A DNA stretch of 64,000 nucleotides from Deltaproteobacteria bacterium (GTDB taxonomy: Bacteria > CG2-30-53-67). Positions 9,806-64,000 of the stretch are shown here, piece by piece; the first letter of the stretch is position 1; every line of letters begins with the position of its first letter. The notes beneath the pieces were generated by a model. The model ran no database searches. It was given only the letters and a program-made list of their open reading frames with translations, and was not told where the DNA came from. Position numbers and translations under genes: made by a program. Location: contig JAADIO010000022.1 in the NCBI GenBank assembly GCA_013151235.1, positions 1-64,000 of the forward strand. The letters run 5' to 3'.

Positions 9806-10279
9806 ATGCCAATGGTTGCCGCGGGAAACGACCTGTGTAAAAGATTGCAGAAAAACTTCAGGTTTTTCAGTACTCTCCGGGAGGAAGAGGTGGAAGATTT
9901 TATGGAGTTTTGTGATTACCGGAAAAAACCTGCGGGAACAATGATCTGGCGGGAGGGAGATGAAGACAACTCGGCGGCATTCATCGTATCCGGACGGTTG
10001 GGAATCAAGAAGAAGACCGAATTCGAGGGAAAGCACGTCATCGTCGGGACCTATGGACAGGGTTCCGTCGTGGGGGAACTCTGTCTGTTAACCGATAACG
10101 CCCGATCCGTCAGTGCGGAAATTATCGAACCGGCGGAGATCGTGATTCTCTCCAACCGGAATTTTGAGAAACTCCTTTCCAAACACCCCATGCTGGGACT
10201 GAAGCTTCTCAAACACATTTTTCTCACCACCAGCGCCAGACTTCGGCGAACCTACGATCGGATCGCTTCAATCTTCTGA
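9806..10279 (+). CDS. Stand-alone cyclic-nucleotide-binding (CAP_ED) domain protein
   Basis: A 157-residue protein made of one cNMP-binding beta-barrel without a DNA-binding helix-turn-helix. The phosphate-binding cassette region reads GSVVGELCLLTDNARSVSAE (about 90-109), close to the CRP pattern, followed by a C-terminal helix pair. A good AGGAAGG site precedes the ATG. Such single-domain proteins usually act as regulatory subunits or structural sensors. A decayed relative of the same domain lies at 34510-34707. The gene converges on the TPR pseudogene. Ligand and partner are unknown. Confidence 0.85.
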   Translation: MPMVAAGNDLCKRLQKNFRFFSTLREEEVEDFMEFCDYRKKPAGTMIWREGDEDNSAAFIVSGRLGIKKKTEFEGKHVIVGTYGQGSVVGELCLLTDNARSVSAEIIEPAEIVILSNRNFEKLLSKHPMLGLKLLKHIFLTTSARLRRTYDRIASIF

Positions 10280-13862: not shown

Positions 13863-13979
13863 AATCCCTGTGACCGATCCTTACGTACCCGGTTTGTTGT
13901 TGTCAGGCATTCTTACTCGCAATTTTACTCTTAATCCTAACCAGATGATCTTAAAAATGGATTAAGGTTACGATGAAGA

Positions 13980-14095
13980 TTAAGAGCAATCCCCTGCTCC
14001 CCTGTCCCTAAGATTTTCCCCCGTGCTCCCCGTGGTCAATGCTTTTGATCTTGCCTTTGCCCCTCTGTGCCTCTGCCCCTTTGCCCCTCTGCCTG
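13980..14095. repeat. Purine-tract intergenic repeat (gcagaggcacagagg type)
   Basis: On the complement this spacer is a run of 'caaaggggcagaggcacagagggg' type units followed by 'gaccacggggagcacggggg'. Similar tracts occur at 28730-28815 and 54661-54810, and a shorter one near 49925-49985. All are in gaps between minus-strand genes. Such low-complexity spacers recur in many large bacterial genomes. No function can be read. Confidence 0.6.
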
Positions 14096-48888: not shown

Positions 48889-49178
48889 AGATCACTCCTT
48901 TACGGATCATCAAAGGGGGTCTATCTATTTGAAAGTATTGACAAACAGATCTATCACATCTTGGCCGGACATCTTATCAACCGGCCGATTCGATGTCAAG
49001 GAGGGAATCATACCCATCCGTCAACCGTCATGGTTTCTTCAAAGGGCTCTGAAGGAAGATGTAACAGGCGGGCAGATCCACCTGAATGGATGTCTAACCG
49101 GAAAATCGACAGTCGGCGTGGATTCGCGGCGGTCAAAGTTTTCGCCGCAGACAAGGCAACCCGGCGAGAGGAAACCGA

Positions 49179-49883
49179 TCACTCCGCAACGGGATTGTTC
49201 GATGCCGCTCCCCGGGCGATAATACGGAACGTGACAACCGGCACCTGAGGAAGGTCCGTACGGATCAGGGCAAGGCCGGAAAAATCCGGTTGTTCGGCCT
49301 TGCCGACGAACGCCACCGACACCTTGATCTCACCACCGGCAGGCACGGCAGGATCGTCGACAGAGATCCTGAGGCGGGTATCGAAGGGTTTTACGACCTC
49401 AAGATGGATCGGCTTCGCCGAGTGATTCGACAGAGTCACCGACCGGGAGACCACCTTCCCCGGAGGAACCAGGCCGAAGTTACAAATCAGGGGATTCACG
49501 GTAACGGGTTCCAGGACATTCCCTTTGATCCGGAGCAGGAATCGCCCGTCCGGCGCGTTGGTCAGGAGGGAAATCCCCTTCGACTGGGGACCCCTTTTGT
49601 GCCGGGAGTTAAAAACCACGAGAAGTTCGCCGCTCTTCCCCGGGGCGATCTCACGCGGGTAGTCACGGGCAACGGTGCAACCGCAGGTGGTTTCCACCTT
49701 GTAAATCTCCAGCGTCTCGTCCCCCCGATTTTCCAGTTCAAAGCGGTGTACCACCTGGGTCCCCTGGAGAATCGTTCCAAAGTCAAAGACCGGCGAAGAG
49801 ACCGCCACTCGCGGCCCCACGGCCGCTGAAACCGCAGCACAGAGCATCATCATAAGAACAACGGCCAGGATCTTTCGTATCAT
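49179..49883 (-). CDS. DUF1573 domain protein, exported
   Basis: A 234-residue periplasmic protein. The signal peptide (ILAVVLMMMLCAAVSAAVG, about 4-22) precedes two Ig-like repeats. The first is a clear DUF1573: SSPVFDFGTILQGTQVVHRF, then FELENRGDETLEIYKVETTC and TCGCTVARDYP. The second begins NPLICNFGLVPPGKVVSRSV. The TCGC motif is characteristic. It is the last gene of the cytochrome-associated group. The frame to 50096 upstream is not protein-like, so I start at 49883. Confidence 0.85.
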   Translation of the reverse strand: MIRKILAVVLMMMLCAAVSAAVGPRVAVSSPVFDFGTILQGTQVVHRFELENRGDETLEIYKVETTCGCTVARDYPREIAPGKSGELLVVFNSRHKRGPQSKGISLLTNAPDGRFLLRIKGNVLEPVTVNPLICNFGLVPPGKVVSRSVTLSNHSAKPIHLEVVKPFDTRLRISVDDPAVPAGGEIKVSVAFVGKAEQPDFSGLALIRTDLPQVPVVTFRIIARGAASNNPVAE

Positions 49884-49987
49884 GGCGCCGCCCTCTCTTC
49901 CAGGAGGGATTTGCACCGCGTGTGGCTCATGCTTTTGGGCTTGACTTTTGACTTTGTTTCTCTCCGTGGTTAATGCTGTGGTTGCCG

Positions 49988-50815
49988 TTACTCCGCGTCC
50001 TTTGCACACCGAAAGCCGACGTCGTTGTGGTGATAACCTTCGATGGCAATCGCCTGCCGTCGGGTAATCCGCAACAGCGCGGCATTTGAACTCCATGCCC
50101 CCCCCCGGATCACGTGGATCCCCTTGCCGTACAGTCTGTTCGACATCTCATTGCCGGGGTACGGGGTATAGACACCCGCTGTCCATTCGGAGACGTTCCC
50201 GGCCATGTTGCGAACCCCGTAGGGCGAACTATCGGTCGCATAGAAGTCCCCGGGAACGGTGCGGGTGTAGATGGGGTTGTGGAAGAGGGTCGCGGAGTAG
50301 CATGCCCAATAGCGGCCCCCGTGGTAGGGCGGCTCATTACCCCACGGATAGCGGCGCCCGTCGGTGCCCCGTGCGGCCTTTTCCCATTCCGCCTCCGTGG
50401 GGAGACGCTTTCCCGCCCACTTCGCATAGGCATCCGCATCCTTCCAGGTCACCTCGACCACCGGCAGTTCGTCCTTGCCCATCACCGGGTTCTTCAGTTC
50501 CACCGGCAGGGTCCGTCCGGTCGCCTCGGCAAATTTGCGGTACTCGCCCACGGTCACCTCATGAGTATCAATATAGTAGGCGGGCAGATCCACGAGATGA
50601 GCGGGCGCCTCATCGTCGTACGAGTCGTCCGCTCCCATCCGGAAGGAGCCGGCGGGGATATAGGTCATTCCCGGGATCACCGCCGGCGGCTTTGCAGACT
50701 GCTGCTCGGCATGCTGCGCCACCTCTTTCGCCGCATGCTGCTCCGGCTTCCCGCTACAGCCGGAACCGAAGGAGATCAAAACAAGAAGGAGAAAAACCAT
50801 TCTGTAAGGGGACAT
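49988..50815 (-). CDS. SUMF1/FGE-fold lipoprotein lacking the catalytic cysteines
   Basis: A 275-residue lipoprotein (lipobox FGSGC, Cys20) with a formylglycine-generating-enzyme fold. GMTYIPAGSFRMGADDSYDDEAPAHLVDLPAYYI-type sequence opens the domain (about 48-80), followed by RLPTEAEWEKAARGTDGRRYPWGN (about 138-161), NMAGNVSEWTAGVY (about 206) and a C-terminal GFRC. In the segment where formylglycine enzymes carry their Cys pair, this protein reads HVIRGGAWSSNAALLRITRR, without Cys. So it is unlikely to oxidise sulfatases. Start 50815 has GGAG eight bases upstream. It follows the 7-haem cytochrome gene by 38 bases. Confidence 0.88.
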   Translation of the reverse strand: MSPYRMVFLLLVLISFGSGCSGKPEQHAAKEVAQHAEQQSAKPPAVIPGMTYIPAGSFRMGADDSYDDEAPAHLVDLPAYYIDTHEVTVGEYRKFAEATGRTLPVELKNPVMGKDELPVVEVTWKDADAYAKWAGKRLPTEAEWEKAARGTDGRRYPWGNEPPYHGGRYWACYSATLFHNPIYTRTVPGDFYATDSSPYGVRNMAGNVSEWTAGVYTPYPGNEMSNRLYGKGIHVIRGGAWSSNAALLRITRRQAIAIEGYHHNDVGFRCAKDAE

Positions 50816-50853
50816 AATAAAATCTCCAATTCTTATGGATATCGACCGGCAGA

Positions 50854-53067
50854 TCACCGATCGGCATGAGCCCAGGCAACGGCACGGTCGTAGTCCTTAC
50901 CGATCGGCGTGCCGCGATAGTTGATGTTACGAGCGAGCAACGGAACGCCGGCAGGCGTGGTGCGATGGCACGCGCTGCACTCCACGGGTCCGGTGGAACC
51001 ATCCGGGTTGTACTGGACCGCCTGCTGCGGCGACACCTCGTCATTGCCCAGGGGATTGACCGGGAAAAGGCCGTGGGCCGCCTGATGGCACCCCTGGCAG
51101 GTGATCCCGGCATGGGCACTCGAAAAACGCATCAGACTGTATTTCTGTGGTTGATCGACGGGGAAAAAACCACCCCCCATCGATTCCACAAAGGGCGGAG
51201 CGTGACAGTCGGCGCAATGCGGCAGACCCGCTGAAAACCAGTAATCCTTGCTGCCGGAGACATCACCATAAGAGACAGGAACGGCACCGTCCACTGCCGT
51301 TGCCGACACCGTGCCGTCTTTCTTCCGGTACCCGAGCGGTGCCCCTTTGCCCCGCTCCCAGGTAGCTTCGTTCCTGTCCCGCCCCTTCACTACCTTCGGG
51401 TCCAGGTAGCGGTCGATAAGCTGCTGCACGTCACCGCCGGTGAGTACCGCAGCAATTTCCGGGATCGTTTTATTCCGCAATCCCGCTCCCGCGCCCGTCG
51501 CCGTATCGGTCAGCCGGTCCGCCCGGTAAAGGGCAATGGAAAGTCGGTTGTGACAGTGCGTGCAATAGAGCCCCCGGTCCTTGCCCTCCTCATCCCAGAC
51601 GGTATCAAGGTACCATTTCCCGATCGCGTTCAGGTGACTCTTTGTGTGCAGTTCGGCCGCCCGGTACGGGTTTGAGTGGACGTCGCGGCCGGTGTAACTG
51701 CCTGCGGCATCCCGGTTGTCCCCCTTCGCGTACCGGTTGGCGCCATCCCGGGTAACGGGGAAACGATCGAACCGACCCGCATCCGAGTGGGCCGGGTGGC
51801 ACATCTGACAGTTCCCGGGCCGCCCCCCGGCGTCCGGAGCGGGCATCACCTCGGCATGTTTTCTGTGTATCGCCTCGGTCAGCGACAACCGCGCCCGCAC
51901 CTTCGAGTCGGCAATATTGGTCATGGGGCTGTCGTTCATCCGGAGACGACCGATGACGTTATCCGCGTGGCACGAGGGACAGAAAACCGTCTGGCGACCC
52001 AGGCGGTTGAGGCTCGAGTTGTTGCTGTAGTTCCAGGTAAAATGGGTCTGCTCGTCCTTGTCGTGAAGTTCGAGGATGGAAATGGCCGCCGCCTGGGTGG
52101 TGGAGAAATGCTCGGTAGAATCACTGTAGGTCTTCAGCCAATAGCTGTATTCCGCTCGGTACTTCTTCGCCCGGTCGCCGTTCGCACGCTTCGTGCCATG
52201 GCACCGATCACAGGAGGGAGCATCGACGGGGATTACCCCCATGGCGGTCATGACACTGCCGTCACGATCCATCACGAAACGGCCGGCTTTGTCCCGCAAG
52301 GTGATGATCACCCGCTGATAGGGCTGGTACTCCACCTCCTTGCCCGAACGGAGGCTTTTGTTTCCGCGCGAGTAGTCGAGGTAGGGAGTAAGCGGTAACC
52401 CTACGGCATCCCACAGATCAGGCGGAGCGAGGGGGATCGGGATATCGGTCGTGTCGTTTTCTCCGTCAACGAAAAAGCGTACGCCGCTCTCGCCGGTATA
52501 GTGAAGACTACGATCACGCTTCAGAATCGGCGGCCAATCAGTAATGCGCCGGCCGGTGATCCCATGGTCGTCATCGGGAGGGTGGGTATTCCAGACGTAA
52601 ATGCGATCCTTCGCCGTCGCCCCGGCCGGTCGGACGCCATCGGGCCGACCGTAGGTATAATAGGGACGGATGAACTCGACCGGTGGCTGGTCGAAGGGAT
52701 CGAGCCGCTCCCCGTTCCGGTCAACATCATACTTGACCCCCCAGTAGGAAAGCTTGTTGCCGGAGGAATAGGAATTTCCCTGAAAACCGAACTCGGGCTG
52801 CACACCGTCCGTCGGGGTCATCAGTTTCGGCGGCGTCCCGTCCGATCCTTCCGTACGGATTACCTGTACCTGCACGCTGTTAAAGGGAGGCAGGGCGGCC
52901 GTATATTTGAAATCGAAGCTGGTGATGTGCATCCCCAATTCCGAATGGATCAGGATTACATAACGGTGCTGGGGCTCATGGAACTCTTCCAGGGCAGGTG
53001 CCCTAACCGGAAACAACGCAACCATGCCCAGGAACAGCAGGACAATCCTCGTGCAATAAGCGCTCAC
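50854..53067 (-). CDS. Seven-haem secreted c-type cytochrome, paralogue of the giant cytochrome
   Basis: A 737-residue exported protein; the signal peptide ends near RAPALEE (about residue 26). It has seven CxxCH motifs: CDRCH (~286), CPSCH (~363), CQMCH (~420), CTHCH (~502), CADCH (~618), CQGCH (~657) and CSACH (~697). The haem-free N-terminal ~280 residues start with SELGMHITSFDFKYTAALPP, matching the giant cytochrome at 54906-59894. Haem contexts also match (for example CHADNVIGR, PHCADCHAPPFVES, AHGLFPVNPL), and only the giant protein's fifth haem is missing. The GTG start overlaps the prolyl-isomerase stop (GTGA), so the two are coupled. Likely extracellular or outer-surface electron transfer. 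Confidence 0.9.
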   Translation of the reverse strand: MSAYCTRIVLLFLGMVALFPVRAPALEEFHEPQHRYVILIHSELGMHITSFDFKYTAALPPFNSVQVQVIRTEGSDGTPPKLMTPTDGVQPEFGFQGNSYSSGNKLSYWGVKYDVDRNGERLDPFDQPPVEFIRPYYTYGRPDGVRPAGATAKDRIYVWNTHPPDDDHGITGRRITDWPPILKRDRSLHYTGESGVRFFVDGENDTTDIPIPLAPPDLWDAVGLPLTPYLDYSRGNKSLRSGKEVEYQPYQRVIITLRDKAGRFVMDRDGSVMTAMGVIPVDAPSCDRCHGTKRANGDRAKKYRAEYSYWLKTYSDSTEHFSTTQAAAISILELHDKDEQTHFTWNYSNNSSLNRLGRQTVFCPSCHADNVIGRLRMNDSPMTNIADSKVRARLSLTEAIHRKHAEVMPAPDAGGRPGNCQMCHPAHSDAGRFDRFPVTRDGANRYAKGDNRDAAGSYTGRDVHSNPYRAAELHTKSHLNAIGKWYLDTVWDEEGKDRGLYCTHCHNRLSIALYRADRLTDTATGAGAGLRNKTIPEIAAVLTGGDVQQLIDRYLDPKVVKGRDRNEATWERGKGAPLGYRKKDGTVSATAVDGAVPVSYGDVSGSKDYWFSAGLPHCADCHAPPFVESMGGGFFPVDQPQKYSLMRFSSAHAGITCQGCHQAAHGLFPVNPLGNDEVSPQQAVQYNPDGSTGPVECSACHRTTPAGVPLLARNINYRGTPIGKDYDRAVAWAHADR

Positions 53068-54503
53068 TTTTGACCTCCGGAGGATGCCGGCGGCAACGCC
53101 TTACCCCGTTTTGCCGTCGGCAGGGTCACCCGGCCGAACCAGTCCGGATCGATAACGACCTTGTGCTTTTTGCGCAGCTCCGCCAGATAGGGTCCCATAT
53201 TCTTCTTGAAGAAGAATTCATTGTAGTGTTCGCGCTTGTCGCTGTTATTGATCCGTTTCAGGGAAAGCTGCTCCGGTGCGACTCGCTCCAGGGTGCGAAT
53301 GAGATGCCACCCGAGCGGCGATTTCACCGGCCGACTGACCTCTTTTACCTTCAAGGCAAAGGCCGCCTTTTCCAACTCGGGAAGGATCTTCCCCCTCCCT
53401 TTTGTGATCCATCCCAAGACCCCCGAAGTCCGCCCGGCGGACGGATCGATGGAGCGCTCCTGGGCGAGCTTGTAGAAAGGATCGTAGTCCTCGGTAGTCT
53501 CCTTGAGGATCTGCTTGCGCAACGCTTTCGCCTCGGCCCTGGTCTTCACCACGATCTGCTGCAGACGCCGCCGTTCGGGAATGGTAAAGTCCTTCGGATG
53601 TTCCTTGTAGTATTCGGCAAAAGCCTTATCCGTGGGGATATACTTTTTACGCAATTTCGTCACGAGCTGCGCTGCGGTGAGGTCGCGCACAAAGTCGTCG
53701 TGGCGGTGCCGGTAGGTGGGGTCCCGATCGAGGCCGAGGCCGCGTGCCTTGCGTGCCTTGAGAATCTCAACTCCCATGGCAAGAAGTTCGGCACGCCGTT
53801 CCCCCGTACTTTTCTTGTTCTTAAGGCGAGGCCGTGCCCATCGCCAGGTCACCGGCTCGCCTGCAACCGTGGCGATTACCTGCCCCGGCTGTCGCTTATC
53901 GTCATCGTTCAGTGCAATATCGGCATCCTTCACCTCCACCCGGAGCGTCTTTCCCAAACTCTCCGCAAGTTCCTTACGTACCTCGTCGAAACGGCGGGCG
54001 GCAAGCTTGTTACGCATAACCCGGCGCATCTCGGCATCAAGTTTGTTGGCACCATGTTTGGTGTTCTTCTCCTTCTTCCACGCAGCCTCCACCTCTGCAT
54101 CGGTAATCTTGCTGCGTCGGTTGTAGAAGTCACGGGTATAGAGGTCGGCGAGGGTTTGAATCTCCCACGCCTTCAGGCGGGTACGGAATTTTTCGCTCTG
54201 ATCCAGCCCTTCCGACTTTGCCTCAAGATAGAGAAGACGCTGGTTGATGAGATTCGTAAGAAAAGCCTGTTTCACCCGCCGTCCCTGACCGGAGGAGTTA
54301 AGTTGATCCGCGTACGCCTGCAGCGGGGTGGAGTCAATCGCCTGGATCACCTCCCAGTCGTGGATGGCAAGGCCGTCCACGGTGGCGACGACGCCGGATT
54401 CCCCTGCGGGTTTCCCCTTCGCCGCATCGGCTGCAAGGGTCGTGCCGGCAAGGAGTACCAGAAAGGAGAAAAGAAGAGAAACGACGACCGAAAGCTTCTT
54501 CAT
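53064..54503 (-). CDS. Parvulin-type peptidyl-prolyl isomerase (SurA/PpiC family)
   Basis: A 479-residue exported chaperone-isomerase. Signal peptide about 1-24. A SurA-like helical N-terminal part (AFLTNLINQRLLYLEAKSEG, about 90-109) leads to a PPIC domain at about 305-410, with ERRRLQQIVVKTRAEAKALR and GVLGWITKGRGKILPELEKA, ending in KSPLGWHLIRTLERV. It heads the set isomerase, 7-haem cytochrome, SUMF1-like lipoprotein, DUF1573, and is translationally coupled to the cytochrome. It probably folds the proline-rich cytochromes outside the cytoplasm. Confidence 0.9.
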   Translation of the reverse strand: MKKLSVVVSLLFSFLVLLAGTTLAADAAKGKPAGESGVVATVDGLAIHDWEVIQAIDSTPLQAYADQLNSSGQGRRVKQAFLTNLINQRLLYLEAKSEGLDQSEKFRTRLKAWEIQTLADLYTRDFYNRRSKITDAEVEAAWKKEKNTKHGANKLDAEMRRVMRNKLAARRFDEVRKELAESLGKTLRVEVKDADIALNDDDKRQPGQVIATVAGEPVTWRWARPRLKNKKSTGERRAELLAMGVEILKARKARGLGLDRDPTYRHRHDDFVRDLTAAQLVTKLRKKYIPTDKAFAEYYKEHPKDFTIPERRRLQQIVVKTRAEAKALRKQILKETTEDYDPFYKLAQERSIDPSAGRTSGVLGWITKGRGKILPELEKAAFALKVKEVSRPVKSPLGWHLIRTLERVAPEQLSLKRINNSDKREHYNEFFFKKNMGPYLAELRKKHKVVIDPDWFGRVTLPTAKRGKALPPASSGGQK

Positions 54504-54600
54504 AAATAACCTCCAACATCCGCTTTAATGAGTGTTTCGCAAAGTACCCGAAAAACCGTATACTGTCAAGGGGTTAAGACCCGCATTTTTCGAACCTGCA

Positions 54601-54661
54601 AATCCCCCCTACCCCCCCTTTCCGGCGCCTCCCCCTTTTTAAAGGGGGACTGAGGGGGATT
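54601..54661. repeat. C/G-rich palindromic intergenic repeat
   Basis: The outer arms AATCCCCCCT and GGGGGATT frame an inner palindrome CCCCCTTTTTAAAGGGGG (54631-54648). It can form a strong hairpin on either strand. The 54504-54905 gap is a mosaic of such repeats between the giant cytochrome gene and the isomerase gene. Confidence 0.65.
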
Positions 54662-54810
54662 CCGCGCTTGTCTTTGATTTTCCTTGCGCCCTTGGCGTCC
54701 TTTGCGAGAAGGCGCTTTCCGCTTTTAGCCTTTGACCGGGGCGGTTTGTAAACCGCCCCCTACATCGATTTGTTTTTCTTTGCGGCCTCTGCGTCTCTGC
54801 GGTGAGATCA
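54661..54810. repeat. Purine-tract repeat plus GGGGCGGTTTGTAAACCGCCCC palindrome
   Basis: On the complement, 'ctcaccgcagagacgcagaggccgcaaag' at the right and 'ctcgcaaaggacgccaagggcgcaagg' at the left belong to the same spacer family as 13980-14095. Between them, at 54738-54758, is a near-perfect palindrome with arms GGGGCGGTTT and AAACCGCCCC. No coding function is seen. Confidence 0.6.
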
Positions 54811-54835
54811 CCTCTTGATGGTTTCATAATAGACC

Positions 54836-54867
54836 AAAGGGGGTGGACCGTAAGGCCCACCCCCTTT
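54836..54867 (-). terminator. Hairpin terminator of the giant cytochrome gene
   Basis: AAAGGGGGTGG and CCACCCCCTTT form an 11-bp stem around a short loop, 39 bases past the stop codon. The strand past the stem has no strong U-run, so termination may be partial, with some read-through into the isomerase group. Confidence 0.6.
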
Positions 54868-54905
54868 GTGCTGTGGCGGATTGGGACCCGCCGGGTTCAT
54901 AATGT

Positions 54906-57900
54906 TTACGGGTTCGACAAGGCACCCACATGGCAATAACCGCACGAGTTTGTCATCCCCGCAGGCGTGGTATCTCCCGCAGGATCGGGGTCACCGTTTG
55001 CAGCCAGATCGGTCCTCATGGCATCTACGAACTCCGTGGTCACCACGTCGAAGGTATGGGAGTGGATATCCCCCTCACGGTACTGGTTCGAACCATCCGT
55101 GAGGGAGTTCTCCCACCGCGCCGTTTTGGCCGTCTTCGGCATATGGCAGTTGGTGCATCGCCCCATACCGCTACCCACCGGATCATAGGTCATGTAACTC
55201 ATAGTACTGTTCACCCACTTCCCTATGTGACGCATCACCTCGGAGGCGATCGTGGCCTCATCGGTCGGGGTCGTGGTCCCGGCGGCAAGATCATCCGCCA
55301 TCGACTGGGTAACAAACTGGAAGTTCGCAGGATCGGCGCCTTCCAGGCTTTCGTCCGGAGTCGTTTCACCCGCACCCGGTGCTCTGAGGGAACTGTTGTG
55401 ACAACCCAGGCAGAGAGCGTTGTTATCACCGTTGGCAGTGAGCTGATGCTCTTCGACCACACCGGCGGCACTGGGACCGCCATGAGCGTCATGACAGTCG
55501 ATACAGGTCACCATCTCCATGTCGTTCTTGTACATCGTCGTACGCACCACGTCGTAGTACTGCTGGTGGTGGCCCTTCGAATGGTTGAAGGAACCGGTCA
55601 CCTGCGTTACATTCCCCGCCGCAGTAGAAGTCACGAAGGGGTTGGCCGACTCATAACCGATATCCTGCCAGCTATGGTGATCGGTGGTATAGTCGATCGC
55701 CTCCCAGTATCCGCCGACGGTCCCGAAGTCGGGAGCCAGGCCGGTGCCGTCTGCGGTGCCGTAGTACTCGGCGGGACTCATCCCCGGCTTGAAGACCGTA
55801 ATCGCCGGATCGACAGTGAGATCTCCCACGGAAGCGAAGCCCGCATGAGCGCCGCTTGAATCAAGGACGCTGTGACCGTGACCGCGCTGGTGACAGGTGC
55901 CGCAAACCATCGTCAGACGTCCCGGAGTCAGAAGATCCGGCTGGACGATATTGTAGCCCTCGCCGCCGTTTGCCACATGTTCGGAACCCGGACCGTGACA
56001 GCGCTCGCAGCCGATGTTGCCGGCGTAGACGTTGGACGCGACCTGGTCAATGTACTGGGTGATGAAATTGCCGTTGCTATCCTTGGTAATGCCGACACCG
56101 CCGTGGCAGCCGGCGCAGTCAACACCAAAGGACTCGGTGGGTGCACCCGTAGGCGTCGTACCAAGGCCTGCGGGTGTAAAAACGTCGGCACCCATGGTGG
56201 TCGGTGTGGACCACTTACCGGAGAACTCACCGTTCTCCCCGAAGGCAGCGGGGTCGGATCCGGACTCGTTCCACTGGAACGGAGCCGGATAATAATAGGA
56301 GGAACCGCCGGCCTGCACGTGCGCCGTTCCCGGCTCTCCATTGGCGCCGACAAGAAGCATGTAGCGCTGCTTGGCAACTCCCTCACCGCCATAGGTGAAA
56401 GCAACGTTGTACGTAGCCGAAAGGTTCCCGCTGCATGTGGCGTTATCCGCCATCTGCATTGTGGGCGTACCCCCCGAGTAACCCAGCTTGGCGTAATGGG
56501 TGTTGCCCTGGGCGGAGAAGCTAATGCAGTCGCCATTGGCGAATGCCGCCAAGCCACCATCAGCGTTGGCTGCCCAACTCGTCATATCCTGCAGACTGTT
56601 GGCCATCGTATAGCCGGGGTTGGACGGATCCGGAACGCGGAATCCGAGGAAGTGAAGGGTGTGCTTCAGCGAACCCTTCGCATGGCACCCAAGACAGGTA
56701 GACGAACCGACGTAGGTCGCCGAGGTGGACGGTGTCATCGAAATCGTGATGTCACCGAAGGCCGGCATGTTGACTACGTGGCCGTTGACCACCTTGAGAG
56801 TTTCACGCCGAGCCCACGGCAGGTGTGCCGTATCGCTCCCCGCAGGGATGACGCAGGCATAGTAATCACCGTCGGCCAGCGGCACACCATTAAAATTGTA
56901 GCTGCCATCAGCTGCGGTGGTCGCAAAACCGCCGTTGGAATTGGACCCGCCGATCACTGCGTTGGCGACATCCTCAATCGGCTGAATGGAACTGCTCGCC
57001 TCCACATCGGCAGCAGAAACAAAGACCACGGAGGCATTGGCAACCTTCGCCGTGGAGGTATCAACGACCGTACCGTGAAGTGCAAGACCGGTCATATTAT
57101 TGTGATTGGCGCAATCGTCGTTGGCCGGGGCTTCCGGAATCATCGTGCGCCCGTAGCCGAGCGGCAGGCCCAACCCGTTGTCGGTTGCGTTTCGTTCGAC
57201 CGTCGGCAGGGTACTCCTCGCGTCCCGCACGGTATGCATGTAGATCACCGCCAGGTCATAGTTGGTGCCGATCGTTACGCCGTTCACCTTCTTCTTCGCC
57301 GCGACTGTCGGTACACCGCCGTTGTTGGTCACGTGACATGCGCCACAGGTAACGGGACCGTGCGAACCGTTGGCATTATACTGGAGCGCAGCGTTGCGGG
57401 TCGTCGGATCGTTCAGCGGCGACACCGGGTAGAGCCCGTGGGTCGACTCGTGACACGACTGACAGGCGATCCTCTCGTGACCCTTGGAGTGGCGCATGAG
57501 GGCGTACTTGCCGGGCTCGGCCCAGGGCGGATTCATCCCCTGGGACTCGACAAATGGATACGCGTGACAGTCGGCGCAGTGCGGCTCACCCGCAGAGGCC
57601 CAGAAGTCACTCCCGTCGGTCACCACACCGTAGGGGACACCGGGGACAACTTCGCCGCCCATCCCCTTGTACTGGTAGTGGTCATTGGTATCATCAATCA
57701 CCGTCTCACCGCCGAGTTCGGAGGCAATATCCACTGCTTCCTGCTCGGTCAGCGGCGTATCGACACCGCCGAACATCAGGCCTTCGGCCGCAGCGTTCTG
57801 CGTGGCAACCAGGAGGTCTTCAGCCGATTCGCCGGCAATCGCAGGTCCCAGTCCACCGATACCGCCGGCACCGTGGCAGAGATCGCATTCCTTGTCCTCG

Positions 57901-59894
57901 TAGACGTTGGTGCCGCCTGTCGGAGTGACGGTCCGCAGTTTCGGGTCCATGTACTTGGAGGTCAGGTCCGACACGGAGACACCCAGTGCGGCGGCAATCG
58001 ACGGAATCCCCGAATCACGCAGGGTTGAGGTCGCGGGACGCGCCGTCGAACCCGGAATGGTGGGATCGCCGATCCCGGTGTCCGTTTTCCACAGTTCGGA
58101 GGCGAGCCGGTTGTGACAGTTCGTGCAGTAGATTCCCTTGCCGGTGCCCGCATCGACGTTATCCAGGTACCATTGGCCGATGGCGTTCAGGTGGCTGGGC
58201 GTATCGTCCGGCTCGTTGTTACGGTCCATGTTGCCATGAACGTCCCGATTGGTGAAACAGCCCACGGAGTCACGGATGTCCGTCTGGGCGACGGAGGTCA
58301 GCGTCCCCTGGTAGCTGAGCGGGAAGTTGGTCATGTCGCCGTTCTGGGTATGGGCCGGATGGCAGGCCTGGCAGTTGCCGGCGCGGCCGTTGTTATCCGG
58401 CAGCGTACGCTCAACAGCGCCGGAATGACGCATATGGATGGCATAGGTCAGCGCCTGGTTGCCGACATTGTCCCGGCTGGCAGGGTAACGCTCCGCCTCG
58501 GAGGCTGCCGGCACGGACGGAGACTGGTTGTCGCAGAAGCGGTCACCGGCCTGGAAACGGCCTACGATGTTATCTGCGTGACATGACTGACACATCACTG
58601 ATTGCCGACCGAGACGGTTGTTCCCGACACCACTCGGGTCGTAGTTGCCAAGGAAGTTGGTGCCGAAATCGGAATCGTGGATACCGAGCATCCCCACCGC
58701 CGCCGACTTCAGCCGGGCATAATATCCCGTGGCCCCCTGGGCGAGCCAGTAATTATACTCCTGCAAGGCGTGACCACCCGGATCACCCGCGGGAATGGTT
58801 CCGCTGGCGGGATCATAGCCATGACACTTTTCACATGCCGGGGAGTCGATTGGGGCGGTGCCGAAAAACTGCACCGGTGTTCCATCGTGCTGCAGCATCT
58901 GGTTGCCGGTGGAAGCGTTGTACATGTAGACCCACTGCTCCTGAAAGGGCCTGAAATCGCTCTCGGCGATGTCGGTAATGTTTTTGCCCACCACCAGGGA
59001 GTCGTTGAACGGGGTCAGCGCAATGCCGACAACATCCCAAACATCGGCGGTCGTCAGAACCACGGGCACATCGGAGAGACGCATGCCATCGAGGCCGAGA
59101 CCGGCGCCCGCGGCATCAATGATCTTGGTATAGGTATAAACGACCGTCCCCTCATTGCCCACATAGGTGAGGCCTGGACGGCCGAGACCTAAGCCGTTAA
59201 GTGCATCGGCCGACTTGTCCGCAAGCTTGTTGGCCATCGCCCCGAAGGTGGGGCCGTGGTCCTGGGGAATATTGAGGGAGGCACCACCGACAGAGATACG
59301 ATCGGTCGCCAGGGCACCCGCCGCCTTGCCGCCTTCGAGGAAGGGGAGAACGGGCGGATCACCCGGACCGGCACCGCCGGAAACGCCGATGCCGGAGCCG
59401 GCATCCTTCCCGGTAAAGGGATTGTAAGTATAGAGAGAGTCGAACTCAACATTCGACAACATGTCCTCAGGGTCGGTGGTGGTCCCGTTGACGTTCGAGT
59501 CGGGACTACCGTCGGCCCATTTCTCGGTGCCGTTCCCGGCATCATAGGGGACTGTCCAGTAGGCCAGCTTTGCTCCCTCCGAGAAGGAATTGTCCTTGAA
59601 CTCATAGCCGAGCTTAATGTTGTCGGCGGGTGTGAGTTGCTTCGGGTGTGCACCGGTTTTCACCGCCTGCGCCTGGATCGAGTTGAAGGGCGGCAGGACG
59701 CAGCAATAGGAAAAATCAAAACCGGTACAGTGCATCCCCAACTCATAGTTGGTAAAAATGAGATAGTTCTTCTTGGGTGAGTTGAGATGGCGGCCCCGGC
59801 TGCGCCTGCCGCGGGCAACGGCATTCGTCGCCAGCGAGGCGACAAAAAGTACGCCCAGGACCAGCATCAGAATCTGAATGGCTGTCTTACGCAT
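54906..59894 (-). CDS. Giant 16-haem secreted c-type cytochrome
   Basis: A 1662-residue protein starting at 59894, where AAAGGAG lies six bases upstream; signal peptide about 1-28. It has 16 CxxCH motifs at about residues 355, 434, 508, 592, 672, 775, 812, 852, 1067, 1262, 1298, 1334, 1467, 1498, 1582 and 1652. The first ~860 residues match the 7-haem protein at 50854-53067, including NYELGMHCTGFDFSYCCVLP at the N-terminus. Residues ~945-1050 form a haem-free beta domain of carboxypeptidase-regulatory type (HGTVVDTSTAKVANASVVFV, DGSYNFNGVPLADGDYYACV). The last ~600 residues are a second 8-haem module. The gene starts 16 bases after a PEP-CTERM gene. Likely role: surface or extracellular electron transfer. 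No membrane anchor is seen apart from the signal peptide. Confidence 0.93.
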   Translation of the reverse strand: MRKTAIQILMLVLGVLFVASLATNAVARGRRSRGRHLNSPKKNYLIFTNYELGMHCTGFDFSYCCVLPPFNSIQAQAVKTGAHPKQLTPADNIKLGYEFKDNSFSEGAKLAYWTVPYDAGNGTEKWADGSPDSNVNGTTTDPEDMLSNVEFDSLYTYNPFTGKDAGSGIGVSGGAGPGDPPVLPFLEGGKAAGALATDRISVGGASLNIPQDHGPTFGAMANKLADKSADALNGLGLGRPGLTYVGNEGTVVYTYTKIIDAAGAGLGLDGMRLSDVPVVLTTADVWDVVGIALTPFNDSLVVGKNITDIAESDFRPFQEQWVYMYNASTGNQMLQHDGTPVQFFGTAPIDSPACEKCHGYDPASGTIPAGDPGGHALQEYNYWLAQGATGYYARLKSAAVGMLGIHDSDFGTNFLGNYDPSGVGNNRLGRQSVMCQSCHADNIVGRFQAGDRFCDNQSPSVPAASEAERYPASRDNVGNQALTYAIHMRHSGAVERTLPDNNGRAGNCQACHPAHTQNGDMTNFPLSYQGTLTSVAQTDIRDSVGCFTNRDVHGNMDRNNEPDDTPSHLNAIGQWYLDNVDAGTGKGIYCTNCHNRLASELWKTDTGIGDPTIPGSTARPATSTLRDSGIPSIAAALGVSVSDLTSKYMDPKLRTVTPTGGTNVYEDKECDLCHGAGGIGGLGPAIAGESAEDLLVATQNAAAEGLMFGGVDTPLTEQEAVDIASELGGETVIDDTNDHYQYKGMGGEVVPGVPYGVVTDGSDFWASAGEPHCADCHAYPFVESQGMNPPWAEPGKYALMRHSKGHERIACQSCHESTHGLYPVSPLNDPTTRNAALQYNANGSHGPVTCGACHVTNNGGVPTVAAKKKVNGVTIGTNYDLAVIYMHTVRDARSTLPTVERNATDNGLGLPLGYGRTMIPEAPANDDCANHNNMTGLALHGTVVDTSTAKVANASVVFVSAADVEASSSIQPIEDVANAVIGGSNSNGGFATTAADGSYNFNGVPLADGDYYACVIPAGSDTAHLPWARRETLKVVNGHVVNMPAFGDITISMTPSTSATYVGSSTCLGCHAKGSLKHTLHFLGFRVPDPSNPGYTMANSLQDMTSWAANADGGLAAFANGDCISFSAQGNTHYAKLGYSGGTPTMQMADNATCSGNLSATYNVAFTYGGEGVAKQRYMLLVGANGEPGTAHVQAGGSSYYYPAPFQWNESGSDPAAFGENGEFSGKWSTPTTMGADVFTPAGLGTTPTGAPTESFGVDCAGCHGGVGITKDSNGNFITQYIDQVASNVYAGNIGCERCHGPGSEHVANGGEGYNIVQPDLLTPGRLTMVCGTCHQRGHGHSVLDSSGAHAGFASVGDLTVDPAITVFKPGMSPAEYYGTADGTGLAPDFGTVGGYWEAIDYTTDHHSWQDIGYESANPFVTSTAAGNVTQVTGSFNHSKGHHQQYYDVVRTTMYKNDMEMVTCIDCHDAHGGPSAAGVVEEHQLTANGDNNALCLGCHNSSLRAPGAGETTPDESLEGADPANFQFVTQSMADDLAAGTTTPTDEATIASEVMRHIGKWVNSTMSYMTYDPVGSGMGRCTNCHMPKTAKTARWENSLTDGSNQYREGDIHSHTFDVVTTEFVDAMRTDLAANGDPDPAGDTTPAGMTNSCGYCHVGALSNP

Positions 59895-59910
59895 GGAAGC
59901 TCCTTTCATT

Positions 59911-60843
59911 TTACACATGGTGCCCTCCTTTCCCACCTGCACGACGACGAAGCCCCAACAGGCCGAAAAGCCCGGTCGCCAGGAAGACGAGGGACGAAGG
60001 CTCGGGAACCATTGCCGTGGTGGTAAGGGCGTTAAGATTGTCGCTCGACAACAGACCCAGGTCCGCGGCCGTGATGGCGACATTCGAGGTGTTGTTCAGA
60101 AAAAGGTCCGCGGCCGATCCGTAGCCGGAGGCGGAAGCCAGCGAAAACAGAACATCTCCCGTAACAGCATCAATGGCCAGCGCGTCTAAGTCCTGTCCCT
60201 GCTCAATACCAAGCGACGCGGCAGTCCGGAAGATGTTACCAAGACTGTTGAGATAGATGTTCCCATCACCGGCAAGGGAGAAGTAGACATCCCCGTCCTG
60301 ACCCGGAACATAAGGTGCGGCACCGAGATCCACGGCATCGAGATCATCATTGTTCTGTCCGTAAGCGCTATCGTTCAGACCGTAGTCCTCACCATAAGTA
60401 TCCGCAAAGTTGACCCCCGCAAGCTGGCCCGGGTTGGCGTCGAAAAGCGTCCCCATCTGCCGACTGGTCGAGGCCTTCCATGCCACGTCCGTGCCCGAAG
60501 CGCCCTGGCTGTTCGCATCCACCGAGAAATAGACGTCGTAGATGCTTGCGGGATCAGCACTGTCAAACCCGAAGGAGAGGGCGTCGATCTCGTCGGCCGC
60601 GGACAATCCGAGATCGGCCGGCGTCAACGCCACGGTGTTGGTGCCGTCGAGCGGCGTATCGAAGAGATGGGCGCCGTCCGGACTGGTGCTGTATACGTCA
60701 TTAGGCATATTCGTTCCGGGAGCAACGCCGATCCCGTCATTGAGCACCGAGAAGGTGTCGGCCCGGCCGATCGCCGGAAGAGCGAAGATACAAATCATTG
60801 AGACAACCGCCAGAAGGCGGAGCCTTAACCCATAACATTTCAT
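59911..60843 (-). CDS. PEP-CTERM sorting domain protein (directly upstream of the giant cytochrome)
   Basis: A 310-residue exported protein with signal peptide (about 1-29) and a C-terminal PEP-CTERM signal: VPEPSS, a hydrophobic stretch (LVFLATGLFGLLGL) and RRRAGGK. The mature part has about four repeats pairing a DLDAL-like motif (LSAADEIDALSF, NNDDLDAVDLG, GQDLDALAID, SSDNLNALTT) with a DVYFS-like strand. An exosortase (not in the window) should cleave the tail. The GGGGG-rich leader is shared with the other two PEP-CTERM genes. It ends 16 bases before the cytochrome start, so the two are cotranscribed. Confidence 0.92.
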   Translation of the reverse strand: MKCYGLRLRLLAVVSMICIFALPAIGRADTFSVLNDGIGVAPGTNMPNDVYSTSPDGAHLFDTPLDGTNTVALTPADLGLSAADEIDALSFGFDSADPASIYDVYFSVDANSQGASGTDVAWKASTSRQMGTLFDANPGQLAGVNFADTYGEDYGLNDSAYGQNNDDLDAVDLGAAPYVPGQDGDVYFSLAGDGNIYLNSLGNIFRTAASLGIEQGQDLDALAIDAVTGDVLFSLASASGYGSAADLFLNNTSNVAITAADLGLLSSDNLNALTTTAMVPEPSSLVFLATGLFGLLGLRRRAGGKGGHHV

Positions 60844-60915
60844 AATGTTTCCCCCTTGTATGATGTCATTCCCCTGCAATAATCCCGCCGGGAGCGAATG
60901 CCTCCGGCTTCCCCC

Positions 60916-60952
60916 TTTCCGGCAGGCAGCAGATTTGTGAACCTGCCGGAAA
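60916..60952 (-). promoter_or_regulatory. Leader hairpin and shared PEP-CTERM leader motif, copy 1
   Basis: TTTCCGGCAGG and CCTGCCGGAAA form a perfect 11-bp stem with a 15-base loop in the leader of the gene at 59911-60843. Its 3' side overlaps a motif found in all three PEP-CTERM leaders (AAATTCCTGTCSGCA, then an A/G-rich run). No sigma-54 promoter is visible in the 287-base spacer, so this gene may be transcribed from the one upstream of the 61131-61952 gene. Confidence 0.45.
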
Positions 60953-61130
60953 CATAACGTAAAATTGAACCATTGTAAAAGTACGATTTATGTTGGAACC
61001 ATTTTGTCGGTCATTCTTCACCCCCCTCATATTTAGATGATCACGATATTTGACTTCAACTTCCGCAGCAAATCTTATGAATCACCCCCTTTCCCGATAT
61101 AAGATCATTTTGCCCATTTGCCGTAAGCCG

Positions 61131-61952
61131 TCACACCCCGCGACGACGAAAGAAGACCGCAAGTCCTGCCAGACCGCTTCCCAACAGCACCAGCGAGCCG
61201 GGCTCGGGAACCGTCGCAAGCTGGAGTTCAAGAACCATCTGGTAAGAGAGAGTATCGAACCCACTTCCCGGCATCCGATTGCCCGTGGCGACAAGACGCA
61301 GGCTCTGACCGTCAAAGGGACGGCCGTCCACCTTGTAGGCGAAGTTGTAACTGCCATTGGTCGGAGAGGTCCACGGGGCGGTCCAGAGACGTAAGGGCAT
61401 ACTGTTATCCAGACCGGTGTTCTGCGGGATGAAGACGGCGTTATTCATCACCACGTGCATCTCGCCGTCACCGGTCACCGTGCCGCCCGGCTCGAAGAAA
61501 CTATTCCACGGAATGGTATACTGGTTGGCGTCGCCGGTCTCAGTGGAGTGGTCGCGGAAGTCGACCGTCCCAAGCAGTGTTCCCGGGACCGTATCCGGCA
61601 GGAAGGTGTCCGCAGGAATCGTCACCGTCGTACCCCCTCCGCTGATTACAATATCCATCGTGCCGCCCGGAATCGCCCATTCCAGGGAATGCTGGAAGTT
61701 AAAGCTACTCCCCGTGTCTCCACCGTTATATGGATCACTTGCGATTCCATCCACACTCCCCGGAACGATGTTGAAGTGGTAGGTACCGTCGGTCCAGGCG
61801 ACCGGCGTGGCATGGGCAGGGACAACCGCCAAGATGAAGAATAGCCCGAAGACAACGGCGACCGCCGCTGTTTTTAAGTGTTGAATGATGATGGTGTGCC
61901 GCCACACCGGAACCTCCGCCGACAGGCGGAGTTTCCCCTTGCAAAGATTCAT
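61131..61952 (-). CDS. PEP-CTERM sorting domain protein
   Basis: A 273-residue exported protein. A long N-region (about 27 residues) precedes the signal hydrophobic core (about 28-48, ending AHA). The C-terminus is VPEPGS, a hydrophobic helix LVLLGSGLAGLAVFF, then RRRGV. The mature domain is beta-rich with SFNFQHSLEWAIPGGTMDIV and NAVFIPQNTGLDNSMPLRLW; I do not recognise it beyond the sorting signal. A GGGGGGAAG site precedes the ATG. A sigma-54 promoter lies about 300 bases upstream. Confidence 0.92.
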   Translation of the reverse strand: MNLCKGKLRLSAEVPVWRHTIIIQHLKTAAVAVVFGLFFILAVVPAHATPVAWTDGTYHFNIVPGSVDGIASDPYNGGDTGSSFNFQHSLEWAIPGGTMDIVISGGGTTVTIPADTFLPDTVPGTLLGTVDFRDHSTETGDANQYTIPWNSFFEPGGTVTGDGEMHVVMNNAVFIPQNTGLDNSMPLRLWTAPWTSPTNGSYNFAYKVDGRPFDGQSLRLVATGNRMPGSGFDTLSYQMVLELQLATVPEPGSLVLLGSGLAGLAVFFRRRGV

Positions 61953-62031
61953 AAACTTCCCCCCTATGATGTCATTCCCCTATAAAACGGTCTTGAACAA
62001 TCGCGCCCGAGGCATCCGCCCCCGGCCCCCC

Positions 62032-62121
62032 TTTTTCTGCGGACAGGAATTTGCAACCCTTTCAGATGACAATCATCAACGGCTCCCAATTCCCGTCATT
62101 AGATCGACTGGGTACCTCCTT
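62032..62121 (-). promoter_or_regulatory. Shared PEP-CTERM leader, copy 2
   Basis: In transcript sense this leader of the 61131-61952 gene holds AAGGAGGT (62121-62114) and then AAATTCCTGTCCGCAGAAAA (62052-62033) followed by a G-rich stem. The same two elements occur in the leader of the 62542-63420 gene, and the second also at 60916-60952. AAGGAGGT has no good start codon nearby in this copy. The role is unknown; a leader RNA element is possible. Confidence 0.4.
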
Positions 62122-62250
62122 TCTTCAATACGAACTAAAACGTCTCCATTTTCATGTTCCTCAGGCTGCAGCACGAATCACTCCCCCCCGGTTTGATACT
62201 GCACGCCACGATCGGCCGGAACTTTATGCGGCCATATACAGCAGCATATT

Positions 62251-62266
62251 GCAGGTTACATGCCAA
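62251..62266 (-). promoter_or_regulatory. Sigma-54 promoter, PEP-CTERM gene at 61131-61952
   Basis: The complement reads TGGCATG-TAAC-CTGCA, close to the sigma-54 consensus TGGCACG-N4-TTGCW. Transcription would start near 62240, leaving a leader of about 290 bases. It shares GGCAYGNAACCTGCW with the promoter at 63633-63648. Confidence 0.75.
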
Positions 62267-62376
62267 TTCTACCCAATGAGCGGCCAGAACAAATAAAAAG
62301 ATAACATGATGAAAAGAAGGGACTTATTTCGGAGCAAGACAGCCCGTCAACCGGTTATGCAGGTATTCGATAGCGT

Positions 62377-62422
62377 GAATATATGAAATAATTTTCCTTT
62401 TTTGTGAAAAGATTTTCCCACT
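62377..62422. promoter_or_regulatory. Conserved upstream activator-like element, copy A
   Basis: A 46-bp AT-rich element with GAATATATGAAAT followed by a palindrome GTGAAAAGATTTTCCCAC. It lies 111 bp upstream of the sigma-54 promoter of the gene at 61131-61952. Copy B at 63764-63808 is at nearly the same distance (116 bp) from the other sigma-54 promoter. It is a good candidate enhancer for a sigma-54 activator. Confidence 0.65.
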
Positions 62423-62468
62423 ATTTGTGCGGATGCACGATTGTGCGGGCTCCACAACGGATGCAGAC

Positions 62469-62502
62469 AAAACAAAGGGGGCCGGCCCGAAGGCCCGCCC
62501 CC
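62469..62502 (-). terminator. Rho-independent terminator of the PEP-CTERM gene at 62542-63420
   Basis: In transcript sense GGGGGCGGGCC and GGCCGGCCCCC pair around TTCG, and TTTGTTTTG follows. It begins 40 bases after the stop codon, so this gene is probably monocistronic. Confidence 0.85.
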
Positions 62503-62541
62503 TGATTCTCTCAGATCCTCAATACGCAAGCGACCGGAGCA

Positions 62542-63420
62542 TTATGCACCGGCGGCCTTTACGGAACGATGATGACGCCGGTGGAGACCGGCGAGAACCG
62601 GCAGGAAGGATGCGATCAGGAAAAAAGAGGAGGGCTCGGGTACGGCAGCGGCGCTGACCCGGATATTGTCCACGATCAGGCCGGTGTCGAAGCTCCCGTC
62701 CCCCTCATCTCCGACAAAAAATTCCAGGGTGTAGTCGCCGGCGCCCAGGATAGAACTGGTGACCGTCTGGAACCCGCCGAGATAGGTCCCGTCGTAAAAG
62801 CTGCTCGCCGGAAGTGTGGGATCGCTGGTCGTCCAGGAAATGCCGCTGAAGTCACCGGCGTATAGCGGTGCAAAGGAACCATCGTTGTAGCCGTCGTCCA
62901 AGGAGCACTGAACCAGGGAGATCGGAGCGCCCGCGGCAGGCAGGAGGCGGATCTCGGCGATATCGGCAAGGCCGGCGGTACTCCATCCATCGAACTCACT
63001 GGTAGCAATAGTCCAGTCGAGAGCCAGAGTGGAGGGGGCCGTAAGCGTAAAAGACTGGCTCAAAGTGGCGATGTCGAACTCGTCGGCGCCGCTTCCGTCC
63101 CGGTCAAACCCCGAATCCACACCCGGCGGCATCCCGTTCACAAAGCTGTCGGGACTGGTCGATAGGAGCGCAAACCAACTGCCGTCGGTTGCCAAATAGC
63201 CGGTCTGACCACTAATATTTTTATCCGGGCTATGGTAGTCGGGGTTGATCCGCTGGACGTTGCCGGAAGCGGTCCAGCCGGACAGGTCGGTTTCAAAAGA
63301 AAGGTTGGTGAGCCCCGTAGCGAAGGCCGCCGCCGGGACGAACAGACAGAAAACTGCGATCACCGCCATCCAGCGGAGTACGACATTCCGAATCTTTAGT
63401 TTTATACTGTATAACTTCAT
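62542..63420 (-). CDS. PEP-CTERM sorting domain protein
   Basis: A 292-residue exported protein with signal peptide (about 14-35, ending AAAFA) and a C-terminal VPEPSS-FFLIASFLPVLAGL-HRRHHR sorting signal. The mature domain begins LTNLSFETDLSGWTASGNVQ, typical of carbohydrate-binding-like jellyroll modules in surface proteins, and includes LALDWTIATSEFDGW and GDYTLEFFVGDEGDGSFDTG near the end. It has its own sigma-54 promoter and terminator. It is likely anchored, modified or released at the surface by an exosortase. Confidence 0.92.
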   Translation of the reverse strand: MKLYSIKLKIRNVVLRWMAVIAVFCLFVPAAAFATGLTNLSFETDLSGWTASGNVQRINPDYHSPDKNISGQTGYLATDGSWFALLSTSPDSFVNGMPPGVDSGFDRDGSGADEFDIATLSQSFTLTAPSTLALDWTIATSEFDGWSTAGLADIAEIRLLPAAGAPISLVQCSLDDGYNDGSFAPLYAGDFSGISWTTSDPTLPASSFYDGTYLGGFQTVTSSILGAGDYTLEFFVGDEGDGSFDTGLIVDNIRVSAAAVPEPSSFFLIASFLPVLAGLHRRHHRSVKAAGA

Positions 63421-63632: not shown

Positions 63633-63648
63633 AGCAGGTTCCGTGCCA
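63633..63648 (-). promoter_or_regulatory. Sigma-54 promoter, PEP-CTERM gene at 62542-63420
   Basis: The complement reads TGGCACG-GAAC-CTGCT, matching the sigma-54 -24 element exactly and the -12 element with one change. The leader to the ATG is about 200 bases. Regulation by RpoN with a PrsK/PrsR-type two-component system is known for PEP-CTERM genes in other bacteria. Confidence 0.85.
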
Positions 63649-63763
63649 ATCCAAACCGGAGCAAGGCAGGTTGGGGGAAAAACCGGGTAACCCACTGATA
63701 ACATAAATAATTATTTTATACCACAAGAGACCGACAACGGCTCATTCCGCTATTCGACAAATC

Positions 63764-63808
63764 GAATATATGAAATGTTTTTCCTCTTTTGTGAAAAATT
63801 TTTCCACT
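63764..63808. promoter_or_regulatory. Conserved upstream activator-like element, copy B
   Basis: A 45-bp relative of copy A, with GAATATATGAAAT followed by the palindrome GTGAAAAATTTTTCCAC. It is 116 bp upstream of the sigma-54 promoter at 63633-63648 and ends one base before the -35 box of the divergent gene starting at 63845. It could therefore act on both directions. Confidence 0.65.
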
Positions 63809-63837
63809 TTGACAACATTAAACGATCCCGTTATACT
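63809..63837 (+). promoter_or_regulatory. Sigma-70 promoter of the membrane protein gene at 63845
   Basis: TTGACA (63809-63814), a 17-base spacer and TATACT (63832-63837) form a nearly perfect promoter. The expected start of transcription is at or next to the ATG at 63845. Confidence 0.8.
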
Positions 63838-63844
63838 GTGCCTC

Positions 63845-64000
63845 ATGAATGTTAGTTTAATGGAACGGTACAAACCGGCGGCCGACCGAAGAACACTCCT
63901 CCTGATCTCCGGGTTCATCTGGTCAGGCGTAGGGATCATGCTGGTCTCCTTTGCGCTCGTGTGGCTTTCGGCCCGCGGGGGAACGGCCGCCTACCTTCTC
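63845..64000 (+). CDS. Membrane protein of unknown function, N-terminal part at the window edge
   Basis: An open frame runs to the end of the window. It starts at ATG 63845 (MNVSLMERYKPAADRR) or at the second ATG 63860 (MERYKPAADRR). A membrane helix follows (LLLISGFIWSGVGIMLVSFA, about 22-41). No ribosome-binding site is visible for either start, and the promoter is so close that the mRNA would be leaderless or have a leader of about 15 bases. The pattern RYKPxxDRRxLLLxxGxxWSGVGIML fits a small conserved membrane protein family of unknown function. Confidence 0.7.
   Translation, partial: MNVSLMERYKPAADRRTLLLISGFIWSGVGIMLVSFALVWLSARGGTAAYLL

Follow-up and report, generated by a model that had tools for sequence, protein, structure and literature searches.

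How are secreted cytochromes that lack a lipid anchor retained by the cell that makes them? This is an open question: polysaccharide anchors the extracellular cytochromes of Geobacter (PMC9244359), and we found no described protein link. The question is raised by a locus of a Deltaproteobacteria bacterium (assembly GCA_013151235.1), in the first 64,000 nucleotides of contig JAADIO010000022.1 (hereafter the window; contig C22 of the 2.62-Mb, 99% complete source genome, G000). Between 49179 and 63420 lie eight genes on the minus strand, which code for three PEP-CTERM proteins (PEPA, PEPB and PEPC), a 16-haem and a 7-haem cytochrome (CYT16 and CYT7), a prolyl isomerase (PPI), an FGE-fold protein and a DUF1573 protein; all had been listed in an initial annotation of the window, and all are present. 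The best explanation of the whole, held with moderate confidence on the strength of sequence comparisons, is that this block is a cell-surface electron-transfer module whose cytochromes would be anchored through PEP-CTERM proteins and polysaccharide.

The block is present or absent as a unit

The host belongs to a small class of which eight genomes were examined (G000-G007), and the next relatives are at the level of the domain only. The Desulfobacterota setting assumed initially is not supported, as no close relative was found outside this class and the one relative with a name, CG2_30_70_394, is a 'Nitrospirae' metagenome-assembled genome. In the congeneric genome G001, the flanks of the block are syntenic with those in the window (57-91% identity) and are separated by about 42 bp instead of 14.8 kb. 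The empty site lies at 13958-14000 of locus L145, where argH is followed directly by the gene whose window counterpart starts near 63861. Homology of the flanks to G001 stops at 49008 and restarts at 63823, so that the edges of the block are at 49009 and 63822 and not at 49179 and 63420. Judged from this alignment, the block is a discrete insertion or deletion, present or absent as a unit.

CG2_30_70_394 (G007), from another family of the class (LysA 57% identical), carries orthologues of PEPA (66% identity), PEPB (58%), PEPC (55-57%), the isomerase (74%), CYT7 (76%) and the FGE-fold protein (74%). PEPB, PPI, CYT7 and FGE are contiguous there, in the order of the window once PEPC and CYT16 are omitted, and PEPA and PEPC are adjacent on another contig, which ends inside PEPC. 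The neighbourhood of cytochrome and PEP-CTERM genes, looked for in relatives, thus recurs. The DUF1573 gene is not beside FGE in CG2_30_70_394, unlike in the window, where it lies inside the insertion. In G001-G006, no orthologue of PEPA, PEPB or PEPC was found beyond the common sorting tail, nor any CYT7 of the window type (best identity 45%); the isomerase and FGE were not searched separately there. Each of these six genomes carries 8-28 PEP-CTERM genes. This joint presence and absence, with only two genomes having the set, is the strongest evidence that the PEP-CTERM proteins and the cytochromes work together.

Recent horizontal transfer of the block was considered and is unproven, because CYT7 and its counterpart in CG2_30_70_394, at 76% identity, are about as alike as ordinary CYT7 orthologues separated by the same split between families (71%), and because the GC content at third codon positions of the block (0.68-0.75) equals that found elsewhere in the window (mean 0.69), compared with 0.91 in CG2_30_70_394. 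No recombinase was recognised within the block, the tRNA genes of the window sit only at the end away from it, and no plasmid relatives of note were found. By sequence, old transfer and loss in six lineages would both account for the distribution.

CYT16 is a fusion of two unrelated cytochrome modules

CYT16 (54906-59918, minus strand) contains exactly 16 CxxCH motifs and CYT7 (50854-53067, minus strand) exactly 7, as counted initially. The two had been called paralogues, which is true for residues 1-905 of CYT16, a CYT7-like module with 8 haems and 34-52% identity to CYT7, but not for residues about 947-1670, an octahaem module unrelated to CYT7. Both proteins have a plain Sec signal, and both lack a lipobox and a PEP-CTERM tail; assembly of the cytochromes by the exosortase route is not supported so far.

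The octahaem module shares 64% identity with an octahaem protein of G006 that has a lipobox and whose gene adjoins those for a 439-residue barrel-like protein and a 13-haem cytochrome, and the same set is found in CG2_30_70_394, divided between two contigs. The barrel label was given by inspection because Pfam returned no matching family. More distant octahaem relatives, several of them with a lipobox, were found in other lineages. A complete CYT16 fusion behind PEPC in CG2_30_70_394 was considered and rejected, as contigs C22 and C26 of that genome jointly give a separate octahaem lipoprotein.

The N-terminal module of CYT16 matches MtrC/MtrF domain II/IV at 32.0 bits (cut-off 30), while CYT7 stays under the cut-off at 26.6 bits; matches to the MtrC/MtrF domain (E-values up to 0.001) are seen in 6 of 9 members of the CYT7 family. 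Searches of PDB sequences with single proteins and profiles matched neither cytochrome to a solved nanowire cytochrome (OmcS, OmcE or OmcZ), so the proposed link to nanowires has found no support so far.

CYT7 and the isomerase belong to a wider operon family

The isomerase gene (PPI, 53064-54503, minus strand) encodes a secreted SurA/PpiC-type protein with PF00639 and PF13145 matches over the cut-off, and its stop overlaps the start of CYT7, in agreement with the coupling noticed earlier. Members of the CYT7 family are present in 10 of 386 sampled genomes. Seven CxxCH motifs are invariant in the family, and near the N-terminus its members share a conserved motif, ELGMHCTGFDFSYCCxLPPYNS, the cysteines of which are lost in the window CYT7 and its CG2_30_70_394 orthologue. 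A PPIC-type isomerase gene adjoins the family gene at two loci each in G006 and G007, and also in G001, G002, G070 and a Methylococcaceae genome; none is beside it on contig C61 of the source genome or in G292.

In the Methylococcaceae locus (L041, SPJM01000248, 4724-13249), a 9-haem cytochrome, a prolyl isomerase, a 7-haem lipoprotein cytochrome, a 155-residue lipoprotein and a thioredoxin-like protein are encoded. Because the order of 9-haem cytochrome, isomerase and 7-haem cytochrome is common to this genome and G002, the CYT16-PPI-CYT7 arrangement of the window appears, from gene order, to be a modified version of an older operon. The likeness to this operon of Methylococcaceae and other phyla (L041, G002 and G070) lies in the succession of large cytochrome, PPIC isomerase and CYT7, seen in L041 and G002; the window differs in that CYT16 replaces the 9-haem protein, the FGE-fold protein replaces the 155-residue lipoprotein, and three PEP-CTERM genes are extra. 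No published name for the heptahaem cytochrome/prolyl isomerase operon was found in the literature searched. The multihaem cytochromes of Methylococcus capsulatus (c553o and others; MCA0421/0423/0424) are a lead only, resting on the CYT7-type operon in a Methylococcaceae genome; among them, MCA0421 is associated with the cell surface and accounts for part of the current on electrodes (PMC6281684, PMC4831470).

The L041 operon is followed by an opposite-strand gene for a protein that may carry a variant sorting tail (VIPTPP). The source genome has a second CYT7-family gene, the one without an isomerase (L054, contig C61, 5221-13063), with a DUF3034 protein, a sigma-54 response regulator, a sensor kinase and a 4-haem protein encoded nearby; related regulator/kinase/haem sets adjoin 9-haem cytochromes in G001, G002 and G004.

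PEP-CTERM proteins, sorting machinery and promoters

Three PEP-CTERM proteins had been predicted, and all three hold. PEPB (61131-61952, minus strand; 28.3 bits) and PEPC (59911-60843, minus strand; 25.0 bits) exceed the Pfam PF07589 cut-off, while PEPA (62542-63420, minus strand) is an exported protein with a degenerate tail, VPEPSS...HRRHH, called by no model and recognised by eye and through its 66% orthologue in CG2_30_70_394 (contig C99), whose tail is normal (VPEPAS...RRRR). Over curated cut-offs, 14 PEP-CTERM matches were counted in the source genome, along with one exosortase (Exosortase_EpsH, 238.5 bits against a cut-off of 25.7, on contig C32) and one PrsR (TIGR02915, 558 bits against 502.6); none of 14 control genomes gave a PEP-CTERM match. 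The gene for PEPC overlaps that for CYT16: its stop lies within ATGTGTAA, which also holds the CYT16 start. The likely start positions are 60843 for PEPC, 59918 for CYT16, 50815 for the FGE-fold protein and 49883 for the DUF1573 protein.

A sigma-54 -24/-12 element, TGGCACGGAACCTGC, was found upstream of PEPA (63634-63648, minus strand), and another, TGGCATGTAACCTGC, upstream of PEPB (62251-62265, minus strand). The two leaders share an upstream box, a candidate activator site, present as AAAATTTTTCACAAAAGAGGAAAAACATTTCATATATTCG 114 bp above the PEPA element (63762-63805, minus strand) and as GGGAAAATCTTTTCACAAAAAAGGAAAATTATTTCATATATTC 111 bp above the PEPB element (62376-62419, minus strand). 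These are the only two matches of the strict sigma-54 pattern in 64 kb, a number no greater than expected by chance (shuffle mean 1.79); yet one falls in the PEPA leader and the other in the PEPB leader, and the shared box stands 111-114 bp above each. Sigma-54-like sites precede PEP-CTERM genes of CG2_30_70_394 too, and the 250-bp leader of PEPC lacks such an element. The layout corresponds to that described for PEP-CTERM genes under PrsK/PrsR/sigma-54 control in the exosortase (EpsH) system, although the spacer, at 111-114 bp, exceeds the published range of 32-92 bp (PMC1569441).

An intrinsic terminator follows PEPA (62470-62510, minus strand), and a strong one with a 15-bp stem follows CYT16 (54835-54868, minus strand). 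This arrangement points to three likely transcripts, namely PEPA, PEPB-PEPC-CYT16 and PPI-CYT7-FGE, the last possibly extending into the DUF1573 gene. The leaders of PEPB and PEPC have AGGGGAATGACATCATA in common directly before their start codons (61965-61982 and 60858-60874, minus strand), and the PEPC leader contains a perfect 11-bp inverted repeat, TTTCCGGCAGG, with no T run. No riboswitch or other RNA with an Rfam match was found in the leaders. The gap between CYT16 and PPI (54480-54830) contains repeat-like stretches, AGGGGGCGGTTTACAAACCGCCCC, with runs of C and G. In CG2_30_70_394, an extra PEP-CTERM gene lies right before the PEPA orthologue (L140, contig C99, 10694-11347). Sigma-54-like sites accompany it at 10257 and 10561, and the window yielded no counterpart of this gene.

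FGE-fold and DUF1573 proteins and a second cytochrome cluster

The FGE-fold protein (49988-50815, minus strand; PF03781, 193 bits) is a probable lipoprotein with a weak lipobox. The copper-binding cysteine pair of FGE sits in the C-terminal segment. The predicted protein has cysteines only at 19, 171 and 269, of which the C-terminal segment holds one, and the paired cysteines of catalytic FGE are absent from its sequence. The last gene (49179-49883, minus strand; PF07610, 103 bits) encodes an exported Ig-like DUF1573 protein.

A separate porin-cytochrome cluster of the source genome (L115, contig C1:20000-34893, 5476-9958) encodes a barrel-like/porin protein of 465 residues with a 5-haem and a 17-haem cytochrome and adjoins genes for an NrfD/iron-sulfur complex and a tetrahaem c protein. 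In CG2_30_70_394, 29-haem, 20-haem and 3-haem proteins are encoded with a barrel-like protein (L124, contig C180, 4613-10245).

Discussion

In the mechanism that we favour, CYT16 and CYT7 would be exported via Sec, given their haems in the periplasm, assisted in folding by the neighbouring PPI, and would then work at the outer membrane or outside it. There the octahaem half of CYT16 could substitute for a lipoprotein cytochrome of the outer surface, which in relatives has a beta-barrel and a 13-haem cytochrome as its partners. All three PEP-CTERM proteins would be sorted by the sole exosortase of the genome, turned on with the exopolysaccharide programme (sigma-54/PrsR) and produced together with CYT16, and would most likely hold the anchor-less cytochromes within the extracellular matrix. 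We infer surface location and electron transfer from the finding that relatives of the octahaem module are encoded in porin-cytochrome clusters, from the partial MtrC/MtrF similarity, from the separate porin/5-haem/17-haem cluster beside the NrfD complex, and from GSU2074, the prolyl isomerase counterpart in the Geobacter omcZ operon, which shows an electrode-growth defect in transposon sequencing (PMC5585712). The anchoring role is suggested by PepA, a PEP-CTERM protein that aids the binding of polysaccharide to cells in flocs (PMC9850573), together with the retention of Geobacter cytochromes by polysaccharide. The initial annotation had spoken of electron transfer or storage; transfer is indirectly supported, through the octahaem relatives and the second porin-cytochrome cluster, while nothing specific points to storage.

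Several points weigh against this mechanism. The isomerase/CYT7 operon lacks PEP-CTERM genes in most lineages, and PEP-CTERM proteins are therefore dispensable for the family; the octahaem protein of CG2_30_70_394 stands alone as a lipoprotein encoded on other contigs, which leaves the window as the only place where the fusion is seen; and predicted structures of the octahaem module and CYT7 were unusable (mean pLDDT about 31). The block has no porin and neither cytochrome has a lipobox or a PEP-CTERM tail, which would allow a periplasmic location. Periplasmic electron storage or transfer, with the cytochromes inside and the PEP-CTERM proteins outside, would also fit the plain Sec signals and a block that encodes no secretion system, but we consider it improbable, since relatives of both halves include lipoproteins (the CYT7-type protein of L041, and the octahaem proteins of G006 and CG2_30_70_394 beside a barrel-like protein) and the MtrC/MtrF-domain similarity also argues against it.

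It is rather unlikely, though less so, that surface cytochromes and PEP-CTERM matrix proteins are co-regulated without contact, as a biofilm island useful under one condition. The three likely transcripts suggest partly separate control, and PPI-CYT7 operons elsewhere do without PEP-CTERM genes; however, all three PEP-CTERM orthologues accompany PPI-CYT7-FGE in the sole other genome having that set, and they are missing from six relatives, each of which carries other PEP-CTERM genes (8-28). As for the direction of electron flow, electron uptake, with Fe(II) minerals or partner cells as possible sources, seems very unlikely as an alternative to export: the sequence gives no direction and the porin-cytochrome cluster beside the NrfD complex and tetrahaem c protein could run either way, but no specific evidence favours uptake.

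The anchored electron-transfer module that we favour resembles several known systems in part. With the PEP-CTERM/exosortase system (PMC1569441, PMC9850573) it shares the tails, the single exosortase, PrsR, and the sigma-54 elements with a common box before PEPA and PEPB; described PEP-CTERM genes are, however, mostly monocistronic and tied to polysaccharide genes, whereas in the block the PEPC gene runs into that of a giant cytochrome, and the set and the cytochromes are inherited together. Like MtrCAB and the Geobacter porin-cytochrome (PCC) systems, it involves a cytochrome, the octahaem half of CYT16, that has a lipoprotein cytochrome as its homologue in sister genomes, encoded there alongside a barrel-like protein and a 13-haem cytochrome, but the block has neither barrel nor periplasmic partner, and CYT16 is a soluble-type fusion without a lipobox. 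The omcZ operon of Geobacter sulfurreducens likewise joins an extracellular multihaem cytochrome and a prolyl isomerase gene (GSU2074) in one operon, but CYT7 and CYT16 match no solved nanowire cytochrome, and the report on omcZ mentions no PEP-CTERM genes (PMC5585712). No paper describing a module that joins PEP-CTERM proteins and multihaem cytochromes was found in the literature searched.

A more specific proposal, possible but offered tentatively, is that exosortase-sorted PEP-CTERM proteins are dedicated partners that fix secreted giant cytochromes to polysaccharide, making an electroactive matrix under PrsR/sigma-54 control that would be distinct from lipid anchoring, porin docking and nanowires. 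The findings extend multihaem electron transfer to a deep lineage and expose a conserved heptahaem-cytochrome/prolyl-isomerase operon common to several lineages, including a methanotroph. A compact block, naturally present or absent, in which matrix proteins of the PEP-CTERM type are coupled to cytochromes opens cytochrome retention to testing, and it suggests that some bacteria may build an electron-conducting outer layer with machinery that also decorates their slime.

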